Positions 31,740 to 36,017 of a stretch of 36,037 nt of DNA are shown here, piece by piece (the stretch's first letter is position 1; every line of letters begins with the position of its first letter). The notes beneath the pieces were generated by a model. That model was not told the origin of the DNA, did no database searches, and saw only the letters and a list, made by a program, of their open reading frames with translations. Where the stretch lies: the NCBI GenBank assembly GCA_039961635.1, contig JABRWB010000057.1, positions 1 to 36,037 of the forward strand, given 5' to 3'. A program made the translations under genes and the position numbers. The stretch comes from a bacterium (GTDB lineage Bacteria > 4484-113 > JAGGVC01).

Positions 31740-34412
31740 TTACCGCCAGAATCCTCCCGATACGCCTTCCGTCGGCCGAATGTCGCCAAGGCTCTGATAG
31801 TAGTATCGATATACGGCGATAGGCGCGCCCTCGAATTCGGTCACGGACAATCCGCCGTTGCAAACTCCCGCGTTTTTCACCCAGCCGCTCCATTGCGAGC
31901 CATTTTCATCGAGCGCAACCGAGTAATAAACCGACCCGCCGCTGTAAGAACCGCTCTGGACCATCACCAGCGGAATCCCGTCCACCGACGACAATTGCGG
32001 CCGCGGCTTGTCGTCGAAGTAACCCCAGTAGTTAATGTCCACCGGGATAAGAACGGGAGCGCCCCAGGAAGCTCCTTCCGCGTCGTTGGCTCGAGAAAAC
32101 CAGAACTCCTTGTCGTCGTAACCGTTGTCTCCGGCCACTATGCAAGGTATCCCATCAATAACAAGTATGTCAAACCACGCCGCAGTGCCGTCAAATCCCG
32201 GATTTAAGGCCTGCATTGGCTCGCCCCATTCGGTTCCTTCTTGGTTTAGCGAATGAATGATTTTAATGGAGCAGATATCATTGCTTTTGTTATAGCCGTA
32301 TACGATGGCGGGTTTGCCAATTAGACTCACCGCCATGATTTGATTAATTGCTTCTCCTTCCAGCACGGTTGTTGGTTGTCCCCAATAATTTCCCAGTTCA
32401 TCATCGGCCTTAATATACATAAGCGCTTTTGTATTTTTATCCCTATACGCAAATGCGGGAATACCATTCGATACAAAGAGGCCGCTTGCAGTACCAATAT
32501 GGTCCAAGGATATTACCGGTGAAGGATTTGCCCATTCATCGCCTATTGAATCTGCGGCGCGAATAAAACAATACAATCCGTTATTTGAGTCTGAATAGAG
32601 AAAGGCAGGATTTCCGGCAATCTCTTTCAATTGTCCGGCACCAATACCATTTGGCAGCCTTATCGGTGCATTCCATTCGCGTGCAAAAATATCGATAGCA
32701 CGGGCGTATTTTGTTTTCGATTCGATTGAATAAAGGACGGCGGGGGTATCGGAAATCACGGCCAATGACGCGAATGTCCCCACCGAAGGACCTTCCTCGA
32801 TCACCGGCCAGCCATAGTCGTGCCAGCCGTGGACATTGATCGATGCAAATGCTATCGCCGATGCCCCTGCATCGTCCGTCACGCGTACCTGGCAAGTGGT
32901 CTGTGGATGGGCAATATTGTATGTATACTCCTGCGCCGGCCCCCCGTCTAGAACGTCCCACAGACCTCCGTCGAAGTTCCAATCGTAGCGTACAATCGTC
33001 CCGTCCGGATCGAAGCTTCCCGAAGCGTCAAACGAAACCGTCAGCGGCGCGTTGCCCTCCTGCGCGCTTGAAACGAGCGACGCAACGGGCTGCTTGTTGC
33101 CTCCGGTAAAAGTCTGTACGGTTAGTTTTTTTGAAGTTGCGTCGGTCGCCCCCTCCCCGTCAGTGACCCGCAGCGAAACATAATTCGTACCGGGTGTATC
33201 GTATGTGTGCTGCAAAAGCCCGATGTTTCCGTTGTCCGTTTCGTACAGCCCGTCGCCGTCCAGGTCGAACTGGTATCGGACTATGGTTCCGTCGGGATCG
33301 TTGCTTCCTGTCGCATCCACCATGACCGAAAGCGGCGCTGGACCAAACGACGGATAAAGTCCCAGGACCGCGATTGGCCGGCTGTTGTAGTTCTCGACCG
33401 AAATCGTGAACGGAAATTCCGCCTCTCCCGCGGCGTTTGACACGATTAGCCGGCAGGAATATTTGCCCGCCGCGCCAAGCACAACAACCGGGGATTCCGA
33501 TTCCGAAATCGGCGGAAGCGTCCCCCCCCCGAAATCCCAATAATAGTGCAAAGGTTCTGTTCCGGACACAACCGGCGCAAACGTAACCTGCGCGCCGTCG
33601 TTGCCCGACAGCGGCGAAACCGATTCCACTTCGGGCGGATAAACAGCCGCCGTCCGTTCGACGGCTTCGCTCATCGTCCCAATATTTCCTTGCGAATCCA
33701 CCGGCGCGACCTTTAAATATTTCAGCATCGCAAACGGCGCATCCACGGTGAAAGTCTTCGGGAAAACTCCCGGTTCGCCGAATGGAACGTCCGCTCCAAC
33801 GCGGTAAAACTCGCCGTCGATCGATTGCGAAGTGAAAAAACGGTACGCCTTGAGATCGCACTGCCAGTTATTAGCGATCGGAGTCACGTCGCCCACTCCA
33901 ATCTCCCCATTGCCGTCTCCGTCAATCCATGCTTCGAGAGGATCGTTCCCCAGCGAGTCACTGGTGCGCGCGAGGTAGTGCTGCGCAATGGGGGTCAAAT
34001 CGGAAATACCCACATCGCCGCTTGTATCGTAATCGCCCTCATTTTTGTAAGTCCAGGAAAGCTTTTTATAGAATGGATCGTATGCCAAATCCTCCACCAA
34101 TCGCGTCCCCCATGCAATTCCGGCCGATGCGCCGCGGTTCTTCAGCGCAGATGCAAGCTCGTTTCTGAGCGCTTCGAACAGCTCCTGGTCGGTACCGGCC
34201 GGGGGCGGGAACGCGCGGATTTCTTCTTCGGCAAACCAGATCCCCTCAATGCCGGCGCCTTGAATCGCCCGCGCCCGTCCCGACTTGCAGGTAGAGGATA
34301 ACAGCAAAATGAAAACCAAAACCGAGGCCATGCCCAGCTCCGCGGCGACTCTGATAATCGCGCCGCTCCCATTGCCGTGTTGCATTTTCTTTCCGTTCAT
34401 CTTGTCGTACAT
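31740..34412 (-). CDS. PKD surface protein with dockerin-like pair and seven-fold C-terminal repeats
   Basis: An 890-residue secreted protein. A hydrophobic segment (28-42) ends at Cys42, but SSTC is a poor lipobox, so it may be lipid-linked or membrane-anchored. LFEALRNEL (78-86) precedes two dockerin/EF-hand-like repeats: GDVGISDLTPIAQHYL (132-147) and DGDGNGEIGVGDVTPIA (164-180). An FN3-like region follows, then about three PKD domains (roughly 265-545). From about 550 to the end there are seven diverged repeats of about 55-60 residues with GxPA, YxD and W patterns, AT-richer than the rest. A run of nine G (33522-33530) encodes three glycines in frame. Role is probably binding outside the cell. 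The ATG sits just after a long hairpin. Confidence 0.87.
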   Translation of the reverse strand: MYDKMNGKKMQHGNGSGAIIRVAAELGMASVLVFILLLSSTCKSGRARAIQGAGIEGIWFAEEEIRAFPPPAGTDQELFEALRNELASALKNRGASAGIAWGTRLVEDLAYDPFYKKLSWTYKNEGDYDTSGDVGISDLTPIAQHYLARTSDSLGNDPLEAWIDGDGNGEIGVGDVTPIANNWQCDLKAYRFFTSQSIDGEFYRVGADVPFGEPGVFPKTFTVDAPFAMLKYLKVAPVDSQGNIGTMSEAVERTAAVYPPEVESVSPLSGNDGAQVTFAPVVSGTEPLHYYWDFGGGTLPPISESESPVVVLGAAGKYSCRLIVSNAAGEAEFPFTISVENYNSRPIAVLGLYPSFGPAPLSVMVDATGSNDPDGTIVRYQFDLDGDGLYETDNGNIGLLQHTYDTPGTNYVSLRVTDGEGATDATSKKLTVQTFTGGNKQPVASLVSSAQEGNAPLTVSFDASGSFDPDGTIVRYDWNFDGGLWDVLDGGPAQEYTYNIAHPQTTCQVRVTDDAGASAIAFASINVHGWHDYGWPVIEEGPSVGTFASLAVISDTPAVLYSIESKTKYARAIDIFAREWNAPIRLPNGIGAGQLKEIAGNPAFLYSDSNNGLYCFIRAADSIGDEWANPSPVISLDHIGTASGLFVSNGIPAFAYRDKNTKALMYIKADDELGNYWGQPTTVLEGEAINQIMAVSLIGKPAIVYGYNKSNDICSIKIIHSLNQEGTEWGEPMQALNPGFDGTAAWFDILVIDGIPCIVAGDNGYDDKEFWFSRANDAEGASWGAPVLIPVDINYWGYFDDKPRPQLSSVDGIPLVMVQSGSYSGGSVYYSVALDENGSQWSGWVKNAGVCNGGLSVTEFEGAPIAVYRYYYQSLGDIRPTEGVSGGFWR

Positions 34413-34569: not shown

Positions 34570-35919
34570 CTAATCAGCTTCAACCGATACTTCGATGCCC
34601 GTCGCACTCACGGTATCGAAATACTCGATGTCCTGCGAGCTATTGCTGTAAAGGTACCAGCATTTCGGCTCGTACGGGGGCGTAGGATCAAGGCCTTCCA
34701 GAAATACGGTGAATTGCACCTCCTCGTCAACGGCGTTGGTGGGTATGTCGATGTATCCGAAATAGCCGATGGTCCCTTCCGAGACGCCGTAGGAAGGATC
34801 AGGCGTTCCGAAAATGAAAGGCATATCCGCGGTCCGCTCGTCCGCCTGGTCGCGCAACGGAGGCGTCCAGGTGATTGCGCCCGCGGCGAAATCGCATCCC
34901 TGGTCGTACAACTCCTGGCAGAACGGCAGCGGATTGGTTGCACTGAAATCGGAGTATGTCACGCTGTCCCAGTCTATCGCGTCCGAACCGGTATCCTGAG
35001 TAATGCGCACCCTGCAAGCTGGCATGTGGAAAAGATCTGCCTCGTTTTCGGTGATCCAGATCTGAATTCGCGCCGTTTCGCCGCCCTTGATAGTCGTATC
35101 CAGACACTCGATGCGGAGCGTGTCGCCAAGCGGATCGGAATCGGCGAGAGTTGTTTGCCATCTTGAGCTCTCCGTGCCCACGTCCTGTCCATCGTACGGA
35201 GCGACGGAGATGTACCAGGTGCCCTCGTCAATCCAACTCTGGCTGTCGTCATACGTCAAAGTGCAGACGTAGCCCACCGCGCCGTTTTCGGTCCAGTAAT
35301 AGCCGCTTGGCTTGTACAGCAAGGGATTCTCGGGATCGGGCTCCGAGTTTTCGTCGTAGAGGAATTTGGACGTTCGCATGGCGTAACTCGGACCGGGAAC
35401 CGTTACCGTGTGAATCACCTGGCCCAAATAGCTGTAACGGAGGTAAACCTTGTAGCCGTCTATCGCATGCCAAGCCGTCCACGCGTCGGTCCAGACTTCG
35501 TAATCACCATCCTGGTAGCCGTATTCGATTTCGTCGTCATCATCATAATCTACAGGGTCTTTCATCGGCCATGATGGACTCCCCCCCGCTATTTTGTCTC
35601 CATTGAAATCCTGCAATGGACCACCGTCGCCCGAATTGACTACTCCGTCACGGTTTCCATCGCCCCGCATAACTTCGCCCCATGAAATGCTGCGATTGCC
35701 AATCTGATCGAAATCGAAAACCGCGTCCTCGGCAAAATCGGGGGCATTGGATACCGAGCGGTCAGGCGTTTCTTCGGGGCCGGGCGGAATCTGCATGCCT
35801 TCGGCACGATCCGAAGGCGTTTGCGAGGCTCCGCTCGACAACCGTCCGTCCTTGTCGCAACCGCCAAGCGATGCAAACAAGGCGTTAACCAATACGAAAC
35901 TTAAAACAACGACAACCAT
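34570..35919 (-). CDS. Lipoprotein of unknown function; frame depends on a G12 tract
   Basis: From the ATG at 35919 the product has 449 residues: a hydrophobic stretch, then lipobox LGGC (Cys21), then an acidic extracellular region. Residues about 85-110 hold EF-hand-like loops (GDGNRDGVVNSGD, DFNGD). The remainder, with VYLRYSYLGQV and IGYFGYIDIPT, is not recognised; it may include FN3 or cohesin-like beta domains. The ATG at 35919 has no ribosome-binding site. A better start, ATG at 35981 with GGGAG seven bases upstream, encodes MRSSTSKYKFRR and would give a proper charged signal peptide, but the 12 G between them put it one base out of frame. A thirteenth G would join them. This gene lies 157 bases upstream of the 890-residue gene. 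Confidence 0.8.
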   Translation of the reverse strand: MVVVVLSFVLVNALFASLGGCDKDGRLSSGASQTPSDRAEGMQIPPGPEETPDRSVSNAPDFAEDAVFDFDQIGNRSISWGEVMRGDGNRDGVVNSGDGGPLQDFNGDKIAGGSPSWPMKDPVDYDDDDEIEYGYQDGDYEVWTDAWTAWHAIDGYKVYLRYSYLGQVIHTVTVPGPSYAMRTSKFLYDENSEPDPENPLLYKPSGYYWTENGAVGYVCTLTYDDSQSWIDEGTWYISVAPYDGQDVGTESSRWQTTLADSDPLGDTLRIECLDTTIKGGETARIQIWITENEADLFHMPACRVRITQDTGSDAIDWDSVTYSDFSATNPLPFCQELYDQGCDFAAGAITWTPPLRDQADERTADMPFIFGTPDPSYGVSEGTIGYFGYIDIPTNAVDEEVQFTVFLEGLDPTPPYEPKCWYLYSNSSQDIEYFDTVSATGIEVSVEAD

Positions 35920-35935
35920 CGCAGAAAGGGGACTA

Positions 35936-35947
35936 CCCCCCCCCCCC
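35936..35947 (-). repeat. Run of 12 G in the signal-peptide region
   Basis: Twelve uninterrupted G on the minus strand (C on the plus strand). The next longest single-base GC runs I noticed in the window are nine and eight. It separates an SD-preceded ATG (35981) from the lipoprotein reading frame. Confidence 0.95.
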
Positions 35948-36017
35948 TGCGAAACTTGTACTTCGAGGTGCTGCTTCTCATCTTACTGCTCCCTAAACAA
36001 TATTTTGCTGAAGCGCC

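Follow-up and report, generated by a model that had tools for sequence, protein, structure and literature searches.

Close to one end of contig C57, a run of twelve G residues separates a well-formed gene start from a lipoprotein signal peptide, and as assembled the two are out of frame. The question is whether such a run is an assembly error, the scar of a dying gene, or a switch. The window analysed here is the whole of this contig (36,037 bp), part of a draft genome of 2.78 Mb in 100 contigs. Judged from sequence, and at a probability of about 0.86, the tract would be the slipped-strand switch of a phase-variable surface lipoprotein gene, one of a family of such lipoproteins in the class.

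Start, tract and lipoprotein frame of the window gene

All features described in the window lie on the minus strand. A Shine-Dalgarno-like AGGGAG (35989 to 35994) stands 7 nt upstream of an ATG at 35981, which opens a basic n-region, MRSSTSKYKFR (35948 to 35981, 34 nt before the tract). The G12 tract follows at 35936 to 35947, and at this length the frame is closed by a TAA at 35901 to 35903. The hydrophobic core of the signal peptide, MVVVVLSFVLVNALFAS, is encoded at 35869 to 35919. It leads to the lipobox LGGC (35857 to 35868), with the predicted lipidated cysteine, by motif, at 35859 to 35857. LGGC, with G at its second position, is a tolerated lipobox variant. The lipoprotein ORF is intact over 449 codons (34570 to 35919) and has its first in-frame ATG at 35919; upstream of that point its frame holds no ATG, GTG or TTG back to its TAA.

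Recomputation shows that the ORF downstream is in or out of frame according to the length of this coding repeat. The frame is open at 10 or 13 G, stops after 15 codons at 11 G and after 26 at 12 G. At 13 G the gene has 470 codons, including n-region, core and lipobox. Only from the ATG at 35981 and with 10 or 13 G is the n-region joined to the core and LGGC, giving the basic n-region, hydrophobic core and lipobox ([LVI][ASTVI][GAS]C) by which the product was recognised as a lipoprotein. An earlier note on this DNA had described the start with its ribosome-binding site (RBS) and basic N-terminus, the position and length of the tract, the stop after 26 codons and the rescue at 13 or 10 G, and each of these is correct.

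The tract would be irrelevant if translation began at the ATG at 35919 and the upstream ATG were spurious. MVVVVLSFVLVNALFASLGGC could serve as a minimal signal peptide, and a methionine occurs at the equivalent point, without an RBS, in the leader type that the window shares with contigs C79 and C26; other leader types lack it. As the note had also observed, the ATG at 35919 has neither an RBS nor a charged n-region. C79 shares the upstream RBS, ATG and n-region (32 of 34 nt identical from ATG to tract), although its mature protein is an unrelated subtilase. Six further leaders (C76, C9, C11 and C78 of the same genome, G006:C4 and G004) lack any in-frame ATG, GTG or TTG in the stretch that links the upstream ATG to the core. 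The ATG at 35981 is most likely the genuine start, given that the homologous leader of C79 has an RBS and ATG at the equivalent position. Initiation at 35919 is thus very unlikely to be the normal route; at most, this ATG allows a low level of leaky expression while the gene is OFF.

The mature window protein is poorly characterised by homology. It matches no Pfam family at E 0.01, Peptidase_S8 included, and no NCBIfam family, and it appears to bear a dockerin-like Asp/Gly motif. A PDB sequence profile search gave one irrelevant match (E 0.043), and AlphaFold run without an alignment gave no useful structure (pLDDT 40). The genome holds just two paralogues, at C76 (55%) and C83 (37%). No homologue was found among 59 relatives, nor any match with the protein as a single query against genome contigs. 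The downstream neighbour in the window is a gene of 890 aa with three PKD domains by Pfam (31740 to 34412), and the C76 paralogue has a neighbour resembling it.

Recurrence of the leader

Length alone does not make the tract a switch. It exceeds every other run in the window, and only one other G/C run in the 2.78-Mb genome reaches 11 or more. About 0.4 runs of at least 12 would be expected genome-wide by a rough estimate, so its length is by itself only mildly unusual. Runs of at least 9 G are found at 70 distinct places on either strand (46 of 9, 22 of 10, none of 11 and 2 of 12). Most of them are glycine codons mid-way in long intact ORFs, and run length alone was rejected as proof. GGG makes up 18% of glycine codons, so codon usage does not account for the runs.

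Position is a different matter. The genome, of which the stretches around tracts were read, was scanned for an RBS (GGAG), an ATG, 12-42 nt and then G8 or more, with the reversed pattern as control. There were 16 raw matches, at 9 places of which 7 are lipoprotein leaders, and a single match for the control. Because of this excess, and because the arrangement recurs in paralogues and relatives, the position of the tract, unlike its length, is far from chance. The pattern and its control were also scanned in 134 genomes outside the class. Some unrelated genomes, such as G100 and G049, likewise show an excess, so the bare pattern is unspecific; lipobox and frame decided each case.

Several matches stand apart from the lipoprotein leaders. 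RBS-ATG-G8 matches in G001 (C72) and G003, and several G6-7 matches in G001, G005, G006, G007 and G009, were rejected on inspection as non-lipoprotein or ordinary GC-rich coding sequence. In G049, a conserved start, ATGTATTTT...CTTAATACCTCTTC, runs into G8-G13 at C3:319, C10:30410, C22:86912, C23:972 and C60:37610; these genes form another family, probably an independent set of poly-G contingency loci. In the window's own genome, the one other G/C run of 12 bases (G000:C68, tract 1510-1521, L067) lies just 3' of an RBS and ATG (MEQQIEFESGKVN then C12). It is out of frame, and 11 or 14 C would open a small helical-looking protein for which neither Pfam nor PHROG gave a confident match. C68 is a candidate for a second ATG-proximal switch, one outside the lipoproteins.

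At least nine such leaders are present in the genome: the window, C79, C51, C76, C9, C19, C32 and the split loci C47/C56 and C11/C78. Apart from the window's own, their runs are G7, G9, G10 or G4-A-G6, at the same site in at least eight lipoprotein genes, mostly subtilases. The seven found by pattern are the window, C51 (MYKFNFLSKP-G9), C9 (MVKRLTNLVM-G9), C19 (as C9, but with G10), C32 (MRSNLSKLA-RGG, G9), and C47 and C56, each with G9; in all of them the run falls between n-region and core. C47 and C56 lie at contig ends and probably continue in the contig starts C11 and C78. The leaders of C79 (G7) and C76 (G4-A-G6) have no run of 8, and C26 starts directly behind the tract, so that its gene is cut there. 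Many contigs (C47, C56, C11, C78, C26, C9, C19, C57 and C83) end within a few hundred bases of leaders. The leaders are near-identical repeats, and the family is probably larger than counted.

The proteins behind these leaders differ. C11, C78, C32 and C79 encode lipoprotein subtilases, while the window, C51 and C76 encode dockerin-like Asp/Gly repeats; the C51 protein has no Pfam match. Peptidase_S8 (PF00082) was found by Pfam in C32 (E 2.1e-31) and in G006:C4 (E 1.4e-25). It is possible, though doubtful, that the 5' leader (RBS, n-region codons, repeat and core) is a cassette copied among unrelated lipoprotein genes, making its recipients stochastically expressed.

Similar leaders occur elsewhere in the class. 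Lipoproteins with G7-G9 at the equivalent site occur in G004 and G006, from one other family, and in G005, from yet another. Those of G004 and G006:C4 are subtilases, and that of G005 is an orthologue of the subtilases in the window's genome. In the orthologous subtilase of G002 the leader carries (TC)7.5, found by TRF, and reads MRMVTFKRAVSLSL then stop. That of G007 carries an 8-bp unit in 2.8 copies. Poly-G, TC and 8-mer repeats are all placed between n-region and core. The assembled repeats of G002 and G007 break the frame, which losing or gaining one unit would restore. G001, the nearest relative, counts against a switch: its three subtilase orthologues have plain signal peptides, and the repeat is absent. 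Two very short predicted lipoproteins of G006, C84 (51 codons) and C104 (34 codons), are in frame behind an MKK..HVRGG/YVRGG poly-G leader and may be stranded copies of the leader.

Comparing tract lengths in related genomes had been proposed in the earlier note as a check on the switch. Across related genes and genomes, lengths of 7, 8, 9, 10 and 12 were found, as well as interrupted runs, and orthologues carry different repeat types. Near-identical leaders have unequal tracts (G9 in C9 and G10 in C19; G12 in the window and G7 in C79), the copies compared here and among the relatives with G7-G9 being paralogues or different species rather than strains. This comparison and the start position in C79 both came out in favour of phase variation.

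Reading frames and selection on out-of-frame copies

The start with an RBS is in frame as assembled at 4 of 17 loci, against one third expected at random phase, in a sample that is small and non-independent. In the window's genome C32 is the only one of nine in frame. Among relatives, G006:C84, C104 and C34 are in frame (C34 being an interrupted run at a contig end), and G006:C4, G004, G005, G002 and G007 are not. When three neighbouring lengths were compared in each of 13 poly-G leaders, a single length yielded basic n-region, core, lipobox and a long ORF in 12 of them; the exception is a gene of 34-40 codons in G006. One more G is required in the window, C51, C19 and G006:C4, and one less in C79, C76, C9, C11, C78, G004 and G005.

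Out-of-frame tracts could be produced by assembly or sequencing error, as the earlier note had allowed; the true tract of the window would then have 10 or 13 G, and the gene would be permanently on. Homopolymers this long are error-prone, the G12 comes from a metagenome assembly and lies about 90 bases from the end of a window that is a whole contig, and all the genomes are draft MAGs. Tracts interior to genes provide a control. The two flanks of all 70 tracts were scored with a model of codon usage built from 17 window genes, and in 59 cases (40 G9 and 19 G10) they agreed in best strand and phase. An example is the G9 at 33522 to 33530, within the neighbouring PKD gene. Ten tracts were discordant: five leader tracts, C68, and four spanned by an open frame (C8:20537, C8:43314, C64:93 and C95:30230). 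One was too close to a contig edge for the model. At the same lengths of G9-10, C32 has the only leader tract in frame, those of C51, C9, C19, C11 and C78 being out of frame, so assembly error alone is insufficient. Repeats other than homopolymers, namely (TC)n and the 8-mer, are likewise out of frame, and independent MAGs (G002, G004-G007) show the same pattern. Error is thus weakened to an improbable account of the locus, by a control that spans G9-10 and falls short of G12; the window's exact count is less certain and may be off by one.

Runs of G9-10 recur in the W-x-F-G-G-G motif of apparent PKD-type domains (window 33522-33530; L020, L039 and L066). These runs, in frame here, could be mutation hot spots.

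Polymerases and ribosomes can also slip on repeats. If the G run caused programmed frameshifting or transcriptional slippage, each OFF copy would yield a fixed share of full-length protein, and most copies are indeed out of frame as assembled. Such a mechanism needs one direction, but the shift required is +1 in some loci and -1 in others. Tract lengths vary, the large gene C32 is in frame, and the TC and 8-bp repeats of two orthologues are non-slippery codons. There is very little probability left for this account.

A further possibility is decay, in which ordinary inactivating frameshifts gather at hypermutable runs of pseudogenes. The G005 orthologue (G005:C100, with a G9 leader) has two in-frame TGA codons, which count against a switch; it may be a pseudogene, an assembly problem or a case of read-through. 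Elsewhere, wherever a copy has long sequence, the ORF beyond the tract runs intact for 432-740 codons. The lesion is the repeat every time, at one fixed place. Between OFF copies, pairwise dN is 0.44-0.58 and dS is 2.3-3.3 where computable and otherwise saturated. Because dN is far below dS, these silent genes are selected for protein sequence: the OFF copies are under purifying selection, as expected with part-time expression. Alleles that are OFF and yet keep intact, selected coding sequence characterise a contingency locus, and such alleles were found here, with G005 as an exception. Mixed shift directions and purifying selection on out-of-frame copies argue against both decay and fixed-direction frameshifting, and decay has the slimmest chance of all.

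A proposed switch for surface lipoproteins

The reading preferred here is phase variation. Translation would begin at the ATG at 35981, build the basic n-region and pass through the tract, where slipped-strand mispairing during replication would gain or lose G. A tract of 3n+1 (10 or 13 G) would bring the core, the lipobox and the mature protein into one frame with the start (ON). At any other length translation would end after about 15-26 residues, ahead of any export signal (OFF), and the assembled contig would represent this state. Across loci, the two wrong phases would end translation within about 11-40 residues, with the export signal incomplete. Lipoproteins of this genome and of its relatives in the class, S8 subtilases for the most part and otherwise of dockerin/PKD type, would be under the same control, and cells would stochastically display differing subsets of surface lipoproteins. 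We infer slippage within populations, switching of expression, surface location and biological role from the anatomy of these starts, their recurrence, the differences in repeat length and type, and the selection on OFF genes, all of which are observed. That the repeat may be G, TC or an 8-mer is consistent with selection acting on instability as such. Against the switch, all ten genomes encode MutS, which leaves no obvious reason to expect elevated slippage.

Poly-G contingency loci in Campylobacter, Helicobacter and Treponema have frame-shifting tracts of about 8-13 G. The tracts described here share this feature in other gene families and lineages.

A close parallel in design is Neisseria Opa, with coding CTCTT pentamer repeats in the leader-peptide region (PMC3960869). 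Both have a coding repeat in the signal-peptide region of a multi-copy family, and repeat number sets the frame, ON or OFF for each copy. The repeat here is mononucleotide G (TC or 8-mer in orthologues) rather than CTCTT, and the switching, proposed here, would concern lipobox lipoproteins of an uncultured lineage, not outer-membrane barrels. The subtilases resemble NalP of Neisseria meningitidis, a subtilisin-like lipoprotein of the cell surface whose phase variation depends on a poly-C tract in its coding region (PMC5472700): a surface lipoprotein with an S8 subtilase domain, proposed to be switched by a coding G:C homopolymer. Unlike NalP, an autotransporter, the two subtilases scanned here have no autotransporter domain by Pfam. 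The tract also lies within the signal peptide and occurs many times over, and the lipoprotein encoded in the window is no protease. Orsi et al. proposed 5' homopolymers as general reversible inactivators, for example the poly(A) of Listeria inlA, and found poly(A) and poly(T) over-represented in their survey (PMC2831843). As with inlA, the homopolymer is close to the 5' end of the coding sequence and the OFF product is a very short peptide; the tracts here differ in being poly(G) at a defined signal-peptide point in a lipoprotein gene family.

Less usual among these systems are the single leader common to unrelated lipoproteins and the differing repeat types at one orthologous site. No account of such a system in lineages represented only by MAGs was found in the open-licence full-text literature.

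One consequence is practical. Gene callers place the start of such genes too late, omitting the proper signal peptide, or break them, so that they will be mis-annotated or missed. The other concerns the biology of the class. If the cassette reading is true, leader shuffling together with slippage would give a free-living, uncultured class a combinatorial repertoire of surface lipoproteins. Most known cases of repeat-driven phase variation come from host-associated bacteria. Its apparent presence in a MAG-only lineage, with varied repeats at one fixed point of the signal peptide, suggests strong, recurring selection for random surface switching outside the classical pathogens, for which phages, predators or competitors are candidate drivers.
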